NCBI GenBank assembly: GCA_025174535.1
Contig: JALBUN010000009.1
Location: 1,364,001 to 1,428,000 of the forward strand
Direction: 5' to 3'
Origin: Cantharellus purpuraceus
Taxonomy: Eukaryota; Basidiomycota; Agaricomycetes; Cantharellales; Hydnaceae
DNA length: 64,000 nucleotides
Shown: positions 122 through 10,944 of the stretch, piece by piece
Layout of the letters: each line of letters opens with the position of its first letter
How positions within the stretch are numbered: the first letter of the stretch is position 1
Made by a program: the position numbers and the translations under genes
The notes under the pieces: generated by a model
Databases searched by the model: none
Seen by the model: the letters and a program-made list of their open reading frames with translations, nothing else
What the model was told of the DNA's origin: nothing

Positions 122-916
122 TGGCTTGGAATATTCTACCCCTTTCTTCCACCTTTCACAACCTTCCAGTAGTTTCCATCTATTAATAGGAATATTCCAG
201 AAGCATTACTCAGCTCCTGTAAATACAAAATATAAGGAGGTCATTCTGCCTCTGAAATAATAACATATTCTACCACTTCTACCCATCTTCTGCACACCAG
301 TGTGACTAGAGTGACATACAGTGTCATCCTCTATATCTCAGTAACTGTTGATTACCAGTTCAAGGATCTTTTACAGTTGTGTAACTGTACTTGATTGCAC
401 TCAAAGTAGTGATATTCCTGCTTTGGGTGTGAGTGTAAAATCTACAGGGTGAGATTGTCTGTCAATAGTCCTGCCATTAGTGCTCTTGTTTAAGTTACTA
501 GTGTGTACTGCCTTTGCAGAGCATTAGAAGCTTGAACTCATGTGAAGCAGTTGCTAGACTACTTCACACATTGCTGTTACCTGCTTCAGAGTGCCACTGG
601 TTGGATGGTTGGATTCATCCACCTACTTCCTTTAGCCTTCAAGTGCATTCCCCTCATTTTGGAATATCTGGACCCCTAAGCATCTATGAACTCTAGACTC
701 TGGAAGTCTTATTTCATTTCTTGCTGCTAAGAAACGTATTACTTTTCTGCATATCATCTGCATTGACCAATACAAAGGATTGTAACCAAAGTACAAACGT
801 TAAATCATTTCTGGAGTTGTGCTGCAGCAGGGTTATATTCTTCTCAGCTGTTCATTCATGGAATTGTGGTGATTTAGAGTTTGCCCTAACACCATAATTT
901 TGTGGGTTCCAAAACA
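122..916 (-). repeat. 3' LTR of the chromovirus
   Basis: On the minus strand this begins TGTTTTGGAACCC at 916 and ends ...CCAAGCCA at 122, giving the TG..CA ends of an LTR, 795 bp long. It aligns along most of its length with the 816-bp solo LTR at 22881-23696 on the other strand. Many differences are CG in the solo LTR against TG or CA here, which suggests this copy is more deaminated. The 5 bp beyond its outer end are gtgat (117-121); the partner duplication is not in the window. Confidence 0.9.
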
Positions 917-940
917 GTAGCTCCACTTCTCCCCCTTGAG
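917..940 (-). other. Polypurine tract of the chromovirus
   Basis: Directly inside the 3' LTR the minus strand reads a purine-rich run (ctcaagggggagaagtggag, then ctac) abutting the LTR TG. This is the usual place and composition for the primer of plus-strand DNA synthesis in LTR retrotransposons. Confidence 0.7.
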
Positions 941-1141
941 CCCCATTAGATCTTTGTGGCTCCATCTCTCTGAGAACTACCATCTATGAGGTAGTTCTCA
1001 TGCTGTGAGGGCGATGCTGATGACGAGGCCACAACAACAAGATACTCAATAGATGAGAGCCAATAAGAGATAATGCCAGCTGGTACAGCGGATATCCTCA
1101 GAGATCAAGCTGAGGGGATCACACTGCACCAAGGCAAGTCT

Positions 1142-1837
1142 TTATACTAAATGATGGAGATGGATAAGAGAACCAAGATAGGGGAATAATAGGGAGGAAA
1201 GATAGGGGAAGTGATAGGGGCAATGAAATAGGGGAGATGCACCCTGACAGGCTGTGCTGTTAGGGGCATCAAGAGAAAATACTAAAACTAGAATATGACT
1301 CATTTGAACCCTGACACATGCTTGAGTCACCCCACAAAGCTCTAAATAATCGTCTAGAGCTTCTAGGTCCTTACACAACATGTAAGGTTCCCAGGTGATG
1401 TCTCCCAACGTCCATGGAACTTGAAATTCAAGTTCTTTATTGCTTATCCATCGATGAGCAATGATTTCATGCCACTCTTGCTTGTCATCATTCCCAAAGT
1501 TGTAAAATGACTTTGCTTCCCATTTTGGGAATCTCATCCCATCATTCAGCACATACAGTCAAATGAGACTGACGTGGAACATAGGTGTAATGCGCCTACT
1601 AGTCAGTTCTGGTGGCAGTTCTAGTGTCACTGTTGAAGCTTTATTATGGGCTTCAATTATTTTATAGGGCCCAATATACCTGGGGACTAGTTTGCCGGTT
1701 CTACCCTTAGGTAGAGTCAAGTTCTTCATTGAGAGGTAGACTTTGTCACCTCTCTGGAAGGTTGGACCTTCCCAACATTTCTTATTGGCATGAAACATCT
1801 GAACAACGTGACTTTCTATAATCGCATTGTGCGCCAC
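1142..1837 (-). pseudogene. Integrase C-terminal region and chromodomain-like tail
   Basis: The 1559-1837 part encodes the post-core integrase segment (GDKVYLSMKNLTLPKGRTGK, then the RYIGPYKI motif and FHVSLI), typical of the GPY/F module of Ty3/Gypsy integrases. The same frame resumes at 1552 after a stop and encodes a chromodomain-like segment with EIIAHRWISNKELEFQVPW followed by WEPYMLCKDLEALDDYLEL. Such tails are thought to guide integration to particular chromatin. The frame differs from that of the catalytic core, so a frameshift lies between 2028 and 1837. Confidence 0.8.
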
Positions 1838-2027
1838 TAGCAGATTTGTTTGGGCCTGCTGTGCAAATCATTTGACACCCTTGAACTTGGTGTCATTGTT
1901 AATGGGCATGCCTATTCTAGGCATATACCTGTGGTTAAGTTCAAATGTAGTAAACCCCGTTGTTGAGCTTATGTTGGAGTTTAGCGCAAACTCCACCATT
2001 GGACACTTGTGTGCCCAATCTTTCTGA

Positions 2028-2909
2028 TCACTTCATACAATGGTACGAAGTATTTGGCCAATGGATCACTTGTTCCATTGCTCCATCTGTTTGTGGATGG
2101 AATGCTGTGGACATGAGGAGTTTCACTCCCATTATCTGCTGTAGTTCATGCCAAAAGATAGACATGAATTTTGAATCTCGATCAGACATGATCGAGTCTG
2201 GTACACTGTGAAGGCATACAACTTCTTTAAGGAATAGCCATGCTACTCCTTTTGCTGTTACACACATGTTTGTAGGTATTATATGTACCTGCAACATAGT
2301 GATTGATGACTACCAGTAGGTAGTCATAGTCATTCAATTTTGGTAATGGACCCATAAAGTCCATACCTATTGATTGCCAGGGCCGCTCTGGTATTGGCAA
2401 GCTATGAAGAAGCCCTGTGGGTTTCTTCATACTGTCTTTATTCATTTGGCACTTTGTGCACAAAGTGCAGAATGATTCAAGATCGGTGGTCATGCTGGCC
2501 ACCAGTACAACTGTCGAATGTAATTTGCAGTCTTTAGTTGACCAAAATGGCCAACTACTTGGTGTGCATGGTCGATTATTATCTTGACCAGCCTCCTCCC
2601 CTTCAGGAACACTGAGCAGGGTATACAGACGACATTGCATTTGTATATATTTTTGGTCCATATTAGACCATCACACACACCAAATTGTGTGTGCTCTTTA
2701 GGTGCTTCCAGCACCTTAGAAAGGACAGTATCCTTTCTATATGTGCCTTGTACAATCTGCATGAGGTTGATCCCATGCTCAACATGGGATTGCAATGGTG
2801 TTCTGTCATCATTTGATGACATCACTCCAACATCCTCTATTTCTTTAGAGGAATTAGAATCATCATTCAATGATTCTGTTTGAACATTGAGTGCTTTGGC
2901 TTCTAGCAC
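2028..2909 (-). pseudogene. Integrase zinc-binding and catalytic core, frameshifted
   Basis: The N-terminal part has the HHCC zinc finger of integrase (HAHQVVGHFGQLKTANYIRQ, then WWPA and CTLCTKCQMNKD). The catalytic core follows, with the first acidic residue in GMDFMGPLP, the second in PDSIMSDRDSKF and the glutamate in TDGAMEQ. Frame changes twice, near 2492 (between WWPA and MTTDLESF) and near 2300 (after DYLLVVI). The core is followed by a TGA near 2028. The order and spacing match Ty3/Gypsy integrase, so identity is secure although the gene is broken. Confidence 0.88.
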
Positions 2910-2939
2910 TCTGTTTTCTTTTTTCTTGAGCAGTTGCCT

Positions 2940-3479
2940 TCAGGTGACTACTGCTGTCCTGATCTCAACGAACTGTTCCATGGGGAGCAGTTCTCCTTCA
3001 GGGTTGAGATGTACATCTGCACTCACATAGATGTAGTTGGGATGACTCTCTGTTGGGGAGTCATCAGCATAGTAGAGTGATAGACAATCTGCTACTTTAT
3101 TCTCTACCCTGTCTATATGCAGGGTGGTGAAGTTGAAACAGGATAAGAACTCCCACCACCTAATCTGTCTAGAAGACAGGTTCTTTTGGGTCTCAAAGTA
3201 TTCAAGACCCTTGTGGTCAGTTACTAGGACAAACTTTTGTCATAGTAGCTTATCTTCCCATTTCATTAGGGCTTCAAGTACAGCTATAGTCTCATGCTTA
3301 TGGGTCTTATAGTGCTGTTGTGTAGCACTAAATTTCTTGGATAGGAATCTGGCAGGCCGACAGGTCTGCCAATCTTTTCCTTGTCCATAGATGGCTCTGA
3401 CTCCAGTTTTGGAGCTGTCAGTAATAACCCAAATAGTATTGGGGTTATTGACAACAATGGGCTTCAATATTGGAGCCCT
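2940..3479 (-). pseudogene. RNase H domain and linker of pol
   Basis: The frame shared with RT encodes PNTIWVITDSSKTGVRAIYG, then ARFLSKKFSATQQHYKTHKHE and, after a TGA at 3240-3242, LVTDHKGLEYFETQKNLSSR and VENKVADCLS. These are the D..E..D..D blocks of retrotransposon RNase H, which removes RNA from the RNA:DNA hybrid. A further TGA lies at 2940-2942. Both stops sit where relatives often carry arginine or another coding residue. Confidence 0.85.
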
Positions 3480-4571
3480 TCATGCTTGGAGCTTAATGCT
3501 TTCAAAGCATTTCTCCAGCAGCAGCGTCCATAAGAATGGATGATTATTACAAGCACAACCCAATAACGGGGTTGTGTATGCAGTTATGTCTGGCATATAG
3601 TGCACCAGATACTGCACTAGTCCAAGAAAATGTTGGACTTCATGGTATGACCTAGGTCGTCTCCATTCTCATATTCGCTGCATTTTATCAGTGTCTGGAT
3701 GCATGCCTTGGTCATCTATTAGGTGACCAAGGCAATCCATACTCATTGAGTATAGATTGATCTTATCCTTGCTCAGGAACATATGTGCTTTCCTGAGCTT
3801 GGTGAACACCATCTCTAGGTGGTGTTCATGCTCTTGTATAGTACAAGAGTACATGAATATGTCGTCCAGATATACATGGATGAATCTTCTGATATATTCT
3901 CAGAAAATGGCAGTCATGAGCTGCTGAAATGTTGAGGGGGCATTGCAGTCCCCTTGCTGCATGACCTGACTGACGAATGTCCCCAAGACAGTTGCAAACA
4001 CCATCTTGGGTATATCTGTCAGTCTGACACATATCTGTTCATACGCTTCAGACATATCAAGTTTAGATTGATATGTACAGCAGGCAACATCATGTCTAAT
4101 GTTGTCCTGATTGGGGAAGGGTGTTATGTCCTTCACTGTATCATCATTCTGTTTGCACAAGTCGAACATGGTGCAGAGCTTCCCATTTTTTTTGGGAATG
4201 CATAGCATTGGTACAGCCTGCTGGGTTGTAGCTGATACCCACCATTTAGCAGTGGTGTATTGCAGGACTTTCTCTGAAAGTTCTGCTCAGTAGTGCTCTG
4301 GACACTTGGGCAAGCGATAATGTATTTGCTTGTCAGGATCCATGAGATTAATCTTGTGGTTAACTTCCCTAAATGGGGGAAGTTCTAAGGGTATGCTGCC
4401 GAATAGGTCAGCGTACTTTTCTTTCCATTGATCCCTCAACTGAGGGATCTGACCAGCCATGTAAGTGGTTGATCCTTCACAAGATGAAGCTATTCGCATT
4501 GTGTTCTGATTTGAATCCTCCATTGGGGGGTCCTTTACTGAGTCTAGTCCTTCTTTTAGAAAGGACTGCAT
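3480..4571 (-). pseudogene. Reverse transcriptase domain of pol
   Basis: In a single frame interrupted by TGA codons (4287-4289, 3900-3902, 3669-3671) the RT blocks appear in order: PMLCIPKKNGKLCTMFDLC, QSKLDMSEAYEQICVRL, QGDCNAPSTFQQLM, the catalytic box VYLDDIFMYS, then the LGHLIDDQGMHPD thumb region and HFLGLVQYLVHYMPD. The catalytic YLDD is intact. The unbroken frame across about 1 kb shows that decay is by substitution, not by insertion or deletion. Confidence 0.92.
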
Positions 4572-4763
4572 TGTGGGTAGCTTGTGTTTAGAGTTACCCC
4601 CTTGGCATCATTTATTCATGCCAACACTCTTTCTTTGTATTGAGTCCATACCCTGTGACGGGGTATGAAGATCATCAGTATTATGCTCTCCATTGGTGGG
4701 GACTTCTTCAGTTCCCATCATGATTCAGCCTGGGCCATTAAAGTCCAGGCATATTCCTAGCTT

Positions 4764-5087
4764 TCATAGGAATGGGATACCAAGTATTACATTGTAATAC
4801 TCAACATTGGTGACATCAAAATATTCTTCAATGTTCCAACTACTAAACTTTATGGTGGTGTGAGTACCATAATTTATGGTACTCCTACTCCCAATGCATG
4901 CTAATTGCAGTGTGATGGGTTGCTCTAGTGCGAATGTCTTCATACCTGTCGCATGTGTGAATTCAGGGGATATCATTATCCCCTCACTTCCACTGTCTAA
5001 TAGACAGTGGGCTAGTGTTCCACCAATCTCCCAATACCCAGAGATTGTTTTGTTGTCTATGTGTGGTCTATCTGGTTGTGCTGTCAA
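4764..5087 (-). pseudogene. Retroviral-type aspartic protease domain
   Basis: The segment encodes HCLLDSGSEGIMISPEF, in which DSGSEG is the active-site D-S/T-G motif of retropepsins, and ends VEYYNVILGIPFL, the conserved ILG flap-end motif. A TGA at 4764-4766 replaces the residue after PFL; the frame then continues KLGICLDFNGPG, as relatives do. It lies upstream of, and in frame with, the RT. Several codons form perfect inverted repeats, for example 4862-4884. Confidence 0.88.
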
Positions 5088-5385
5088 CTTCTGTCAGCTC
5101 CTATGATTATACATAGGTTCAGCCAACCTGTCGACACTGACAGCAGCTATATGCAGCTGTCATGATTCCCTGCTTCTTGGGAATCTTGTTGCACTACAGA
5201 AACACACTGCATAAGTGTGTCTTGGTGGAATTTGATCATTGGGTCAAATTCATATCACATTAGAGCGATACATTGGTGTAGCCTCCCTTTCAGGGGTGTC
5301 ATCTTGGTCATCCCATTCGTATGGGGCAACCTCCTCATCCCATTTGTCAGCCACTTCTATAGCTGATACTTTTTCATCTAGATGG

Positions 5386-6088
5386 TGTTATTTAAATAAT
5401 GTGAATAATTGCCTTGCTGGGGTGTAGTGACGAGCAGAAGTCGAATAGAAAATGGAGCAGTGGTGGGAACACAATGTATGTGCAGTCGAATTGGAGATAT
5501 ATCTTGGGAGTATCCTCGTATGAAGTTTGATGGGATTTGGTGTAGTCTTCATTAAAAAAGTAGCCAGTGATTGTATGGCTTCGTAATTCAAGATTTGAGT
5601 GGGATATGCAATATTCTAATAGAATATGCAAAAGCTAATAGAAATACATGTTCGTTCTGGAGATATTCCAGATACGAATAGATTCAGACACACAGACAGA
5701 ATATGTGAGAGATAATTGCTCTATCTTTTCAAGTGCATTACAGACGTGATTTATATATGATACTAAGTCCTATGAATGAATGAAGTCATTCGTGAATGTC
5801 CTGAGTCAATGATGGGATGGATGATGAGATGATGATGGGGGGGATATGTCCATGATGATGAAATGATGAAAATAAAAGTGAAATAATGTCCAGGAAGTTC
5901 TGGAACTCACAGAGGCTTCTCCTGTTCCCTATTCCATTCCTATAACCATCCTCCTTTCCCCCCTTCACCCCTCCAAACCTCCTGAGCCTCCTACATGCTC
6001 CTGTTCCTCCCCTGTCCCCTCTAATCCCCCTCTCCTCTCCTTATTCCCCAGAAGTCCAGCAGCTAGATGTCCAGCAGCTGGAACAACA
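5386..6088. mobile_element. Solo LTR nested in the chromovirus
   Basis: A 703-bp insertion with terminal TGTT..AACA (tgttatttaaataatg at the left, ggaacaaca at the right), flanked by the perfect 5-bp direct repeat gatgg at 5381-5385 and 6089-6093. Removing it rejoins an inverted repeat of the host element. It lacks the dense small hairpins of the surrounding element and has no coding signature. Orientation is not certain. A diverged relative appears to lie at about 9430-10060. Confidence 0.88.
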
Positions 6089-6190
6089 GATGGTCCTTGG
6101 GATCATCCATTGCTTCTTCATGTTCTCCCTCTATTGGGGAGAATCTATCTATCTTATCCTCCACTATGTGTGAGGACACATCCTTTCAGA

Positions 6191-6443
6191 CTGCAGCTGA
6201 CCTTATGTTGCCCTTTAATTTGGGGCAGCTAGGTCACATGTGACCTGTCTGGCCACATTCGTAGCACACAATGTTACTAGTAACATTGTTCGATCGATCA
6301 CCACTTGCATGTGCTGGTGGGTTGGATGGATAATTGCCCTTGAAAAGGTAATTGTTGGAATTGGCCCTGGAGCTTCCATATGGGGTTCCAGCCTTGACAC
6401 ACTCACTTGTCATGAGTGTGTGTTGGGAGCCATATACACACAT
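6191..6443 (-). pseudogene. Gag zinc knuckle (CCHC)
   Basis: The minus strand encodes VCYECGQTGHM, then TGA, then PSC: a C-x2-C-x4-H-x4-C knuckle in which one residue is a TGA stop where arginine is common in relatives. Such knuckles bind element RNA for packaging. It is separated from the protease by the nested LTR at 5386-6088. The frame differs from the gag core upstream, so there is an indel between them. Confidence 0.8.
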
Positions 6444-6561
6444 CCTTGGGGCGTGGGTTGACTCCCCATATTCATCATACCAGTAGTTCTATTGACTACT
6501 GATTATGGGTTGAGGGGGATGTGTTAGTCGTGTTCTCCAGGCGTTGCATACTGTGGTGGCA

Positions 6562-7224
6562 TCACATTGCTTCCTCTATCATTTGAGCAGTTTCATACAA
6601 CTGCTTAATACTGCTAAATTTGGCATTGAAGCCCTTCTTGAGGACTTCCTGTCTCAGAGGTTCACACATTGCAGTTACAAACCTCTTCCTGTATGTGTAT
6701 GCATCCAGCGGCATTATCATGCAACCCACGTACTTATCTAGGTCGTTCATTAATTCATGAATGGTCCTTTGACCCTGTATTACAGAGTCAAATTTATTTG
6801 ATGCATGGTGATGCATTAGGGTGTGTAGGAATCTACACTGCAATCCTTGGATTGCAATTTCCAGGGTCCAGTCTTGGACTGTCCTGTTGTAGTATTCTAC
6901 ATTCCTGTAAAACCGTTCCTGGGCCTCACCTTTAAGGCAAGTCCCTAAATACAATAGCTGAAACTTTGTACTTGATGGCCCTAGAAGATTATTCATCTTC
7001 AGCCATCATAGCATACCTGCTACAAAGATCTCAAACTCTTTGAGATCTGCACCTCTGGCATATTGCTCAGGAGGCAATACTTTAATGCCTGCCTTTGCAA
7101 GTACAGACTTCTCTGGGTCTGTATTTCTATTATCAACTATGGATACTCGCACCATGCAAGTAATACCGTCAATAGTATCAATTGTGTTCAATTGATCTGG
7201 TATGCCTTGACCTTCTAAGGTCAA
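6562..7224 (-). pseudogene. Gag capsid-like core
   Basis: Two pieces in one frame (7006-7224 and 6562-6996), split by a TGA just before WLKMNNLLG. The second piece encodes a retrotransposon-gag-like stretch with YLGTCLKGEAQERFYRNVEY, DWTLEIAIQGLQCRF and a later MCEPLRQEVLKKGFNAKFSS segment. This matches the general layout of fungal Gypsy gag (alpha-helical capsid domain before a CCHC knuckle). The family call rests on position and motif layout, not on a database search. Confidence 0.7.
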
Positions 7225-7858
7225 TGGTGCTGATTGTTCCCTGTTATGGGGAACATCTTCTTAAGGTACCCATTGGGTATCTCATTGCTCATGGTGGGTG
7301 TCTCCTGAAAGGCCCACCACTTGTACATGCTGGTAACTGTTCAGCATATGTTGCAACTGTCAGTTTAAATTGACAGCCACATTGAGCTCTTGCTGGGGCC
7401 ACTGCTCTCTAAACAGCTGGCTGAGCTCCTGCTCTGCATGTTTAGCCTTCTGTTTGAGGGCTAATCTATGTTTATGAGAAGCCTCAACTTCTCATTGTTT
7501 CCATAGCTCAATCTCTTGATTGAGCTCCTTTGCCATAGATTGAGGAGTTTCCTCTTCAATCTGGATCAGTAATCCTTGCCTCACAGGGATTATTGGGTCT
7601 CTGATTCCCTCCATTGGGGAAATTTCATTTCCTCTGTCCAACTGATCATTTGGTTGGACCCTCTCACCCTGGGGAGATCCAGACTCTCTGGATTCAGATT
7701 CTCAATGAGAATCTGATCTTCAGTGACATGACTTGTGTCACTCAGAGTTCTCTTGGAGCAATTTTAACATTGTTCCTAGCTCTGCAATTTGCTGCCCCAT
7801 AGTAGTGGCAGCATGCCCTGCTTCAGCAGCCATCTTGGCTGCCTGAGCACTAGCTTCA

Positions 7859-8125
7859 CTAATGCTCATTATGCATGAGTTGTTCAGTCAATCTTGCAAT
7901 TGACCTGTGGGTTTCATGCCACTCCGTGCTGTGCAATTCCCTAGTAGAAGTATTGCTACTTCTACTTGTGCTCATATATTGAGCATGTTCCTTTACTTTA
8001 GGAGTGTTGGAGGCAGTTAATGACTGTCTCCTCCTTTCTTCTCTAATCAGAGAACCACTCAATGAGGGGTTCCTGTTCGACAGATGATCCATTGCGCGAC
8101 TGTCTGTGTGGTCTTGCAACCACAA
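7859..8125 (-). pseudogene. Gag N-terminal segment
   Basis: An 88-residue polar, charged open stretch (RDEERRRQ-like patches, Ser/Thr rich) upstream of the capsid region, as expected for the N-terminus of a fungal Gypsy gag. It is in a different frame from the gag core at 7224, so it is broken from it. Sequence between 7225 and 7858 keeps coding-like glutamine/leucine-rich fragments but no clean frame. Several perfect hairpins lie inside it (7943-7966, 7969-7985). Confidence 0.45.
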
Positions 8126-8755
8126 TGACTCTCTCCTATAGTCCTCCTTACAAGAAGTCCCTACAACTTCTCTAGGGTCTAGCTCCCCTTCATGGGAGCT
8201 TCTGCTGCTGGCTACATGCCATCATTCACCATTTATGATGTCCTGGGCACTGCCAGCATGACTCACTCTACTGTGAGTCATCATTATGATGACTCCTTTC
8301 TTTCTTCTATCTTTGTAGACTAACTAAGTTAGTCTACTAGTTGCTCACTTATATGAGCAACTGGGGGGGTTGGTATACATCTGTACACCAGCAACAGCTG
8401 GCTTTCTAGTATTGACTAGAAAACTTCAATAATGAGGAAGAATCACTTGATTCTTCCTTTGGAAGTTCAAAAAAGTGTAAGTTGGTGTCTTAGTTCACAC
8501 CATTACACAGAACTCAACCAAGTGTATTGGTTGCATGATGTGTTGTACAGTGTGGTAGTTAACTAAGTTCTGTCTACTATATGTAGACCCACATGTGTAC
8601 TTGGGTCCACTGGCTTATATAATAACTATACATATGCACCCTATGGGTGCATATATCTATCAAGAAGACAGCATTCCTTAATGGAATGCTGCATACATTA
8701 ATTATAACTATATAACTATATACTATAGTAAGTAAGTACCTTGGATACTTACAGG

Positions 8756-10080
8756 AGGGAGGGGACTTCACTGTTCCAGTTTAGCTGGAGATAGAGTGAG
8801 GGCAATAACTATTGAGTCAGATCAAGTGGACTTGGATTCAACTTGTGTGTTGCACCCCCTTGGATCATTGGTCTAATATTTTGGAGTTCAGAGTATGGAG
8901 TTGGATCAGGGATCCAGAGTTCAACTTGTCAAGAGGGTACTTGTCAAGAAGCTAGCAACCAAGAAGTTGATGGGGGCAATCTTAGTCGATATATGAACTA
9001 CTATAACATACAGAGAGTAGCCTGTATAAGTATGTGAAGAATTGAATGATAACTAAAAGTGATAGGACAATAAGACAGATGTGAAATATAACATGGAAAG
9101 GAGTTTGGAGTTTTGGACTCAAGTCCAAACTAATACTAAGCAATATAAAAGATAAAGGTTTGTTATAACTCATAAGAGGAAAACTACTTATATAGAGAAC
9201 AATAATGGAGTTTGGGGTTGATGGAGGTGGAGTAGAAGGAGATGGAGATGGAGTCTGGAGATTGGACTTGGTGTTACAGCATGTTGTTAAGAAAAGATGT
9301 GGAGGAGTGTTGTGTGTGAGTGTAAGATGAAGGTGAGGGATGGTGGCGAAGTAGATTTTGAATAGGGGAGCAATTACTGCAAGGATGCAGATATATGTGG
9401 GGTCGATGGAAAGGTGTTGTTTAGTAGAGTGATGTTACCAAATATCAGAATATTCAGTTAAGAGCTGGGACTTCTGAAAAATATTTGAGCAGAAATGGGA
9501 ATAGCAACACTTCAAAAAAGTGTTTGCTTAATAGAAATGGATGTAATAATCCAAATCGTTCGTAATTTGAGATAGAAATAGTTGATGAATATCCTAATGG
9601 GATATGCAAAAGATTTCAAATTGAATAGGTCGTTTAGGAGTTATTCCAGGAACAACAGAAAAGTTGACACAAGCTGTTTGTTTGCAGCTTGGAAGGGATT
9701 AAGAATAGTGAATCCAATCTCTTTGATACTCATACACAGTTGTAGCTAATATACAATTTGACAATCACATGATAAGAATGCCCTTTAGTAAGATTGAAAC
9801 ATATGATAAAAGAAATGATGCAGATACCGTTTGACTTGAGGTTTATGACGAATGAAAATCATCATAATACCTCCCTTTTGAGTAGTAGCCACCCCCGTAG
9901 AATGAAAGCATGGCTCACAAAATAAAATCGAAAATCACCTCCTCCTCATCCCTTAATCAAAAAATTCCTAAACTTTTCACAACTTTCCCTTATCATAAAA
10001 ACTCTCCCTTCTTATTCCAATAGGTCAGAATAGTATTTGAATAAATTCTTGACACATGTAACATGTACTCCATCTCTGGT
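8756..10080. mobile_element. Unresolved LTR-type transposon debris
   Basis: No protein-coding signature is visible. Around 9540-9870 the order of short motifs (gatatgcaaaag, ttattccag, a gaatga..tcat block) resembles 5500-5800 of the nested LTR, so at least part is a diverged relative of that LTR family. A purine-rich run (minus strand ctcaaaagggaggta) lies near 9870. The start, aggggacttcactgttcc at about 8762, resembles 22849-22866, just left of the solo LTR at 22881. Clear ends and target duplications were not found. Confidence 0.45.
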
Positions 10081-10944
10081 TGAGACCAGCTCCTTACACC
10101 TTACATAATGCAAACCACTGTAAGAAGGGATATCTGATATCCACATCAATGAGAGGGAGAGAGCTGTCACATGTGATAGTTCTTCTCCTCAGTTGGTGGG
10201 AATGAGTTCTGACTTTGATGGAACAGCAGGTAGCAGGTAGTGTCTGCAAGCTGTTCTGAAGCTGCGGCCAACTGCTCATTCCATGTAAATTGAGTGGATG
10301 AATAGACCCAGATGAATTTTGCAGATGAGAGACATGAATTCATGGTTGTGGGTAGCTATGTATCTTGATTGTACCCTGAAGCACACCATCTCAGGAGCAA
10401 AGCACATTTTGCAAACTGCTGAAAAACTGCACTTATATATGAAACCAAAGCTAAAGCTTTGGTAATAATATAAACCCAACTACACATGTGAGACTTGGGG
10501 TGTGCCAAATGTGAACTTCACCCACCTGGCTTATTTATGAATGCAGACACTGTCAATCTACACGCTGGCACCATGTGCCCAGAGTGATACTCTATGATGT
10601 GAATGGCCACCTGCTTGCACAAAGAGCACAAACTTAGTTACCTAAGGTGAACTAGCTGGTCCAAACTGGCTTGTCTATATAGAGGTTAGCTTGGTGGTTA
10701 GGTGCACTAGGTCCAATATGATATAGCCAAAGCAGTATATAAATATTGGTAACCACTATTTATATACACCATTCAATTGTATGATGCACATTGAGTGACA
10801 TGCCTAATGACTGCTATATACATCTGCATTCTTGTCATTTGTAGCCACTTCTGACATGCCTCTGTGGTACTATTCCTCTGCATACTGTGTCTCCAAGGCA
10901 TTTAGAGTTTTCCCTAACACCATAATTTTGTGGGTTCCAAAACA
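10081..10944 (-). repeat. Second LTR, related only at its 5' end
   Basis: On the minus strand this begins TGTTTTGGAACCCACAAAAT at 10944. The first ~45 bp match the start of the chromovirus LTR (872-916) with one or two differences, after which similarity is lost. A TATA-like run (gtgtatataaatag on the minus strand) and the absence of an ORF fit an LTR. The lower boundary is approximate. A purine-rich tract lies just outside 10944, so this is probably a 3' LTR whose internal region extends to higher coordinates. Confidence 0.5.

Follow-up and report, generated by a model that had tools for sequence, protein, structure and literature searches.

Short hairpins of about 22 nucleotides tile a gypsy-type retroelement family in Cantharellus purpuraceus

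We analysed a stretch of 64,000 nucleotides (nt) from the fungus Cantharellus purpuraceus (contig JALBUN010000009.1, 1,364,001-1,428,000; hereafter the window), which carries on its minus strand a gypsy-type retroelement crowded with short perfect inverted repeats. The hairpin array spans 917-8753 and comprises, with two inserts excluded, 83 non-overlapping perfect stems of at least 7 bp. The results showed that the stems exceed codon-preserving shuffles, that they are present through the whole family of the element, that protein conservation in the stems is approximately normal, and that synonymous changes shared between copies are fewer in the stems of pol. The best-supported reading, to which we give a probability of about one half, is that the array is maintained by selection.

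Stems were counted as perfect pairings of 7 bp or more, closed by a loop no longer than 12 nt, and dinucleotide shuffles served as the control. Positions 917-5385 contained 54 stems compared with a shuffle mean of 3.85 (maximum 8, 20 shuffles), and positions 6089-8755 contained 35 compared with 2.3 (maximum 6, 20 shuffles). For stems of at least 8 bp, the counts were 29 against a shuffle mean of 1.35 and 19 against 0.65, respectively. When the pol frame in 2001-5385 was shuffled with its codons preserved, the mean was 4.5 and the maximum 10 in 200 trials, compared with 44 stems observed. Overall, the element carried 10-15 stems per kilobase (kb), compared with about 1 per kb in shuffles. By region, the protease with its linker (15.4 per kb) and the 5' region at 7706-8753 (15.3) were the densest, followed by the integrase (14.2), gag with leader (11.1), RNase H with linker (11.0) and the reverse transcriptase (RT; 9.6). 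Outside the array, the density was 0 and 1.4 in the nested inserts, 2.2 in the repeat at 1-916, 2.3 in the flank at 8756-10054 and 0.7 in the host part; the rest of the window (12001-64000) had 35 stems, or 0.67 per kb, with a shuffle mean of 35.7 (3 shuffles).

A preliminary description of this DNA had already reported stems far beyond chance, and this held throughout the comparisons above. Stems were confirmed at 971-1000, 2177-2196, 3803-3828, 3831-3849, 4783-4801, 8275-8295, 8403-8422 and 8435-8458, including the conserved places that had been named (2177-2196, the flanks of the RT motif and 4783-4801), where the protein motifs are kept. The spacing of one stem every 35-45 bp was too dense, as the strict count gave one per about 82 bp over about 6.8 kb; a tighter spacing (116 units in 3,385 columns) was obtained only with CpG decay allowed, at a threshold where about 30% of sites are background. 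Likewise, the chance rate of one 8-bp stem per about 6.6 kb became about one per 3.6 kb by shuffling (loops of 0-12 nt). The host part lacks the array, as had been stated, and so does the nested insert at 5386-6088 (1 stem, shuffle mean 0.65); the account of hairpin-free inserts was incomplete, since a second one lies at about 1005-1316.

We then considered base composition, low complexity, chance or an assembly artefact as the source of the stems. Dinucleotide and codon-preserving shuffles fall far below the observed counts, and the same stems occur in dozens of copies on many contigs, so that this explanation is extremely improbable and, for the family, refuted. What it has in its favour is a mild rise in stem counts at other gypsy-type loci, 11 of which (L001-L008, L069, L070 and L073) showed 1.3-1.7 stems per kb. 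Compared with mononucleotide shuffles, L001-L008 had 36 stems versus 13.8, L069 and L070 together 21 versus 9.7, and L073 9 versus 3.2. Because these counts are two to three times those of the shuffles, a weak form of the hairpin trait may be wider among gypsy-type loci. Neither a density at shuffle level nor an equal density in other gypsy elements or host sequence was found, the other gypsy-type loci standing at about twice the shuffles.

The array was found to be a family trait that extends beyond one copy. A search with the RT region returned at least 54 match rows (40 scored of 204 candidates), the main ones with 84-93% identity. All 59 family loci (L010-L068, 14 of these rows duplicating the position of another row or of the window) contained a 1-kb bin with at least 7 stems, which rules out a trait of the window copy alone and extends to the whole family what had been described as a property of the element. 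Such a bin was also present in one of eight other RT loci (L004, among L001-L008), partly from an AT-rich repeat common to other loci. When every locus was pooled with the window without removing duplicates, family bases carried 12.3 stems per kb and other bases 1.5. Insertion of ready-made hairpins was rejected because the RT stretch aligns to L069 nearly gap-free. Viral contigs, searched with one protein and with an alignment, yielded no relative; genome contigs yielded a single one, L073, with 40% protein identity and 9 stems in 5.25 kb (1.7 per kb), and this was the sole homologue outside the C. purpuraceus genome compared for tiling. The gypsy-like RT of L073 comes from a contig binned as Rhizonema, a cyanobacterium, and is perhaps fungal DNA from a lichen sample. 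In sequence collections, 425 protein relatives were found, of which 120 were used (54-82% protein identity).

The geometry of the hairpins points to local units. Their span was 21.8 +/- 3.1 nt, and stem and loop length were anticorrelated (-0.445; simulated null -0.03, first percentile -0.27). Loops of 0 to about 12 nt were enriched, longer loops were at about background, and pairing dropped to about background past 11-12 nt from the centre, whichever part seeded the unit. Close to the loop, the 5' arm favoured C and the 3' arm G; C-G closing pairs stabilise hairpin loops, and this orientation is as expected if the hairpins really fold. Loops and flanks compared across units showed no strong sequence motif, and Rfam returned 0 matches at E<=0.1 for window positions 900-8800, with no known RNA family. 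The folding energy was assessed on 17 sense fragments of 350 nt (11 from pol, 4 from gag, 2 from the 5' region), with 25 dinucleotide shuffles each. The sense folding excess was 35.5% in pol, 31.9% in gag and 48.2% in the 5' region (two fragments), compared with 3.1% and 4.6% in the controls.

To compare the copies with one another, 15 rows were dropped (14 duplicates, and L029 as a near-identical neighbour of L028), leaving 45 including the window. L028 and L029, about 4.8 kb apart on C17, are side-by-side copies that probably arose by local duplication. CpG-type columns varied at 32-33% and other columns at 2.1-2.7%; because the former dominate the variation, the differences between copies look mostly like decay after insertion. 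Changes of CpG to TpG or CpA run throughout the pol segment of L010-L068, a mark of cytosine methylation or of a process like repeat-induced point mutation, and TGA is the commonest stop inside the listed frames of family copies.

In pol, changes private to one copy ignored stems and codon phase, and those common to at least three copies fell mainly on third codon positions. The latter mark the time when the element was active. At non-CpG third positions, changes in at least three copies affected 16 of 314 stem columns, 17 of 106 loop columns and 52 of 474 columns between units, which is a significant depletion in stems (Fisher odds ratio 0.40, p=0.0008); singletons at such positions (99 in stems, 28 in loops, 142 between) showed none (p=0.49). 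In the divergent copy L066, third-position differences numbered 10/146 in stems, 12/47 in loops and 51/234 between, and 13 of its 16 stems sit at family centres. Stem depletion was seen in all four divergent copies tested (L066, L059, L062 and L022; p from 0.00002 to 0.0099), and the raw counts in L063 were 4/36 in stems versus 18/86 elsewhere. Protein conservation against relatives was 0.627 in 5' arms, 0.645 in 3' arms, 0.632 in loops and 0.692 in the rest, and none of the three arm comparisons was significant. These values draw on four pieces, for which 120, 36, 49 and 4 relatives were available, and leave out sites covered by fewer than 12 of them.

From its 5' end via the gag-like region and pol to a further 3' region, this gypsy-type element has become densely set with small hairpins, each of about 22 nt and independent of its neighbours. 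In pol, this is achieved through choice among synonymous codons, and we infer that selection kept the stems while the elements were active. As to function, we tentatively favour a shield: folded genomic RNA may escape RNA-guided silencing or other RNA sensing, in line with a proposal made for genome-scale ordered structure in RNA viruses, and stems of at most 12 bp would be too short as good Dicer substrates. Packaging or compaction by Gag would be the next candidate. The preliminary description had offered selection for a beads-on-a-string RNA structure as one possible cause, and of its two causes this one fits better, as shared synonymous changes avoid pol stems; the part that specifies RNA is left open, because a G.U preference is missing and the two strands are nearly symmetric.

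Several results weigh against a selected array, its weak points being strand symmetry, missing compensatory changes and failure to replicate outside pol. The antisense folding excess was 35.0% in pol, 25.4% in gag and 34.2% in the 5' region, which is near symmetry with the sense strand. RNA-level selection should favour sense-strand G.U, and near-perfect units showed no such preference in sense RNA: with one non-CpG mismatch allowed, we counted 39 A.C, 16 G.U and 28 other units (overlapping centres, hence not independent), compared with column-shuffle means of 2.95, 1.55 and 10.85. The joint excess of A.C and G.U matches transitions in once-perfect stems. Compensatory non-CpG pairs were few in pol (5 single cells), and the 5' region had no compensatory change from one Watson-Crick pair to another; since the family copies differ mainly by CpG decay, these counts carry limited weight. 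Stems of the 5' region were not clearly slower (L071, 17/333 in stems versus 32/530 between). Shared gag changes were not rarer in stems (6/126 versus 12/248 at the most variable phase); gag singletons were (47/357 versus 151/748, all phases), which neutral decay does not explain. An effect at third positions was absent from L060, which had 7/93 in stems and 12/193 at other sites. The fixed outer edge at about 11 nt, to which dense packing of neighbouring units may contribute, and complementary bases at 17 of 42 positions where a hairpin loop cannot close are without explanation under selection for hairpins. In addition, all copies come from one genome, and the divergent ones also bear changes acquired after insertion.

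Some of these features suit a templated origin, in which the element's RT or host replication repeatedly folds back or switches strand, copies one arm from the other and thereby perfects imperfect repeats. Pairs without G.U bias and a nearly strand-symmetric folding excess would follow, and palindromy that extends into loops of 0-2 nt (17 stems) agrees with it. Exact loop inversions beyond CpG decay were also found: AGA to TCT in L023, and perhaps L013, at 4273-4275; 8 nt in L052 at 3869-3876; AA to TT in L038 at 6845-6850; and, in the 3' region, AGAA/TTCT when L052 is compared with L035. Plain reversals, taken as the control, numbered 0. Two more putative inversions lie in L048 at 4027-4030 and in L021 at 8447-8449. 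Few copies show any such event, however, and among 10 exact reverse-complement rows, five trace back to a single CpG site (2456-2461, also present as an 8-nt version) and three to the same L023 event; candidates at 2456-2461, at 5119-5126 and of the CACA/TGTG type were dropped as CpG effects. Stems gained through changes confined to one arm involved the 5' arm 5 times and the 3' arm once, where the null gives about 2.6 for either; this split is small and its polarity uncertain. Foldback switching had been put forward in the preliminary description, and the direct comparison suggested there did not bear it out: differences between copies did not preferentially complete inverted repeats, with 14 gained stems versus 11.9 +/- 3.3 (maximum 22) in 60 trials in which each copy's differences were relocated, and 9 versus 5.8 (maximum 12) for stems of at least 7 bp. 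Neither arm was less conserved in protein (p=0.99), a separate comparison gave no consistent trend, and an arm asymmetry in one 128-codon piece (0.56 versus 0.72) vanished with more pieces. The exact loop inversions suggest that strand switching at family hairpins happens, but rarely, and that the arms anneal during some round of DNA synthesis, which falls short of showing that such events made the array. Templating explains the symmetry; the direct test, which concerns recent evolution, went against it. It could have acted earlier, and we regard it as an unlikely source of the array.

A function at the DNA level would draw on the same symmetry of pair types and folding excess. Here, palindromic units of about 22 bp would act as double- or single-stranded DNA and not as RNA, for example as cruciforms, as hairpins of minus-strand complementary DNA or as sites for a dimeric protein that reads two-turn palindromes. 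The narrow span with its stem-loop anticorrelation, the outer edge, which stays about 11 nt from the centre for every choice of seed, and the complementary bases at positions unpairable in a hairpin loop are in line with it. Against this stand the C-G orientation near the loop, which suggests hairpin folding, the packing of neighbours that may set the outer edge, and the absence of a strong motif across units, because of which no sequence-specific protein is obvious. To our knowledge, no such DNA-level function exists for retroelements, and we consider it improbable. We also put forward, with reserve, that the retroelement as a whole, with its 5' end, protein-coding parts and 3' region, may consist of palindromic units of about 22 nt that form a strand-symmetric code and owe their length to a molecular ruler, an architecture not described before. 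The small-RNA machinery, an RT-held hybrid and a two-turn DNA reader are candidates for such a ruler.

Among known systems, the array resembles viruses with genome-scale ordered RNA structure (GORS), in which, according to an RNA-virus survey, many local, energetically favoured stem-loops along the coding sequence give a folding-energy excess over shuffles (PMC7642675). The survey gives 7-15% for hepatitis C virus and SARS-CoV-2 (about 15% for the latter) and 23.4% as the highest value, compared with 32-48% on the sense strand of the present element, although the fragments of the survey overlap and its shuffler differs (PMC7642675). It also describes GORS as poorly conserved in position (PMC7642675), whereas the stem positions of the element are kept between copies. 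Further differences are that the trait is hosted here by a gypsy-type retroelement, that its units are about 22 nt long without G.U preference, and that the excess is nearly equal on both strands. The folding-energy excess along the element is well above shuffled controls; the tolerance of G.U and the strand asymmetry expected of action on the RNA strand were not seen, and we therefore compare the element with GORS and do not file it there. Template-switch mutation at quasipalindromes (treated in PMC7202029) is similar in its expected products, perfect short inverted repeats and loop inversions; it differs in that the element's copies have no excess of stem-completing changes. No hairpin-tiled retroelement was found in titles and abstract beginnings of open-licence papers, which is weak evidence of absence. 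The hairpin tiling of a retroelement is without an established explanation.

The element itself has the order protease, RT, integrase of a Ty3/gypsy retroelement, as indicated by Pfam matches to these pieces; all features are on the minus strand unless stated. Its 5' terminal stretch (7706-8753), placed by stem density and edge mapping, carries 16 stems and an open frame of 120 codons (7859-8221), and we leave open whether it is coding, leader or long terminal repeat (LTR). The outer 5' edge of the family is sharp at 8753, as 21 of 59 match rows start at query position 547 or 548 though the query extends beyond. A 5' LTR at 7706-8753 was first suggested by 24 of 44 match rows stopping at query 1047-1049 of 1055. 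These rows stopped because the query ended there: among the best-scored places, with 66 more query bases 0 of 40 rows stop at 7706, and in a separate search 41 of 42 rows cross it. With the border refuted, a non-coding nature of the 5' region is not used in favour of any explanation. A shared point of the 5' region, near 7913, is where the copies on C4, C23 and C5, three in all, break off or are interrupted.

The leader and gag-like region (6089-7705; 18 stems, open frame 6562-7005) matched no Pfam gag family, the sole match being Med20 below its cut-off, and gag was assigned from position for this reason. The nested insert at 5386-6088 (no strand assigned) has the same sequence as L069:6666-7431, with 94.6 and 97.0% identity in two pieces. 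An aspartic protease fragment lies at 4764-5093 (Asp_protease_2, 24.6 bits, cut-off 24.3; RVP_2, 21.4 bits, cut-off 20.3), and the codons of its ILG motif are covered by the stem at 4783-4801. The RT (3669-4286, open pieces 3900-4286 and 3669-3896) scored 23.1 bits for RVT_1 in one Pfam search, below the cut-off of 29.6, and 37 bits, above it, in another. The zinc-binding region of the integrase is at 2490-2939 (Integrase_H2C2, 31.2 bits, cut-off 25.5), and on the C-terminal side of the integrase a Tf2-1-like SH3 domain is at 1559-1867 (PF24626, 51.5 bits, cut-off 30). Protease, RT, H2C2 integrase and SH3 are thus arranged as in Ty3/gypsy elements with a Tf2-1-like integrase SH3, and the hairpin tiling sets the element apart from the other gypsy-type loci compared. 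The stretch at 1317-1558 is chromodomain-like, but the chromovirus label given earlier could not be established, as Pfam found no chromodomain match in the window copy and the matching stretch of L071 scored 14.3 bits against a cut-off of 25.1. An abundant nested repeat of about 312 bp follows at 1005-1316 (no strand assigned, 0 stems), which query positions 384-698 matched alone at many places with 95-97% identity.

Of the limits proposed earlier (917 and 8755), the family's 5' edge was placed at 8753, and 917 proved to be a breakpoint of the window copy and not the family end. It lies inside a hairpin that L071 has whole, at the point where an abundant repeat starts. Beyond it, the L071 sequence carries further hairpins, and 39 places besides L071 extend at least 136 nt past it (40 of 41 match rows with L071). 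Still further 3', in a stretch seen in L052 (2195-2860, minus) and partly in L035, the sequence varies more (73-88% identity for the majority of match rows); this stretch is also tiled, with 10 stems in 666 bp. A second hairpin-rich family in L052 was considered and set aside; the stretch is likelier the 3' part of the same family, since at least 14 of 42 rows adjoin places of the family's 3' continuation. An open frame of 108 amino acids in this region (L052:2169-2495, minus), perhaps a third gene, gave weak matches only, several of them to coiled-coil models and all below cut-off. No LTRs were found: in a self-comparison, L071 did not repeat its 5' end anywhere in 9,976 bp, and the compared sequences reach no copy's 3' end. 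Around the element, the very abundant repeat at 1-916 (1,935 first-look candidates) begins at 916, and its first 45 bp recur at 10900-10944 with 98% identity and in similar form in L072. Flanking repeats at 8756-10054 meet the element's 5' edge at a sharp border, and pieces of them occur in L052, L059, L070 and L072.

If selection maintains the array, no mobile-element sequence known to us would be more strongly structured, and the idea of whole-genome RNA structure would pass from RNA viruses to retroelements. Laboratory fungi would then allow template switching, packaging and shielding from RNA silencing to be tested there. A templated array would instead document RT strand switching within coding sequence that did no visible harm to the proteins. 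In both cases, units of about 22 nt call for a ruler.

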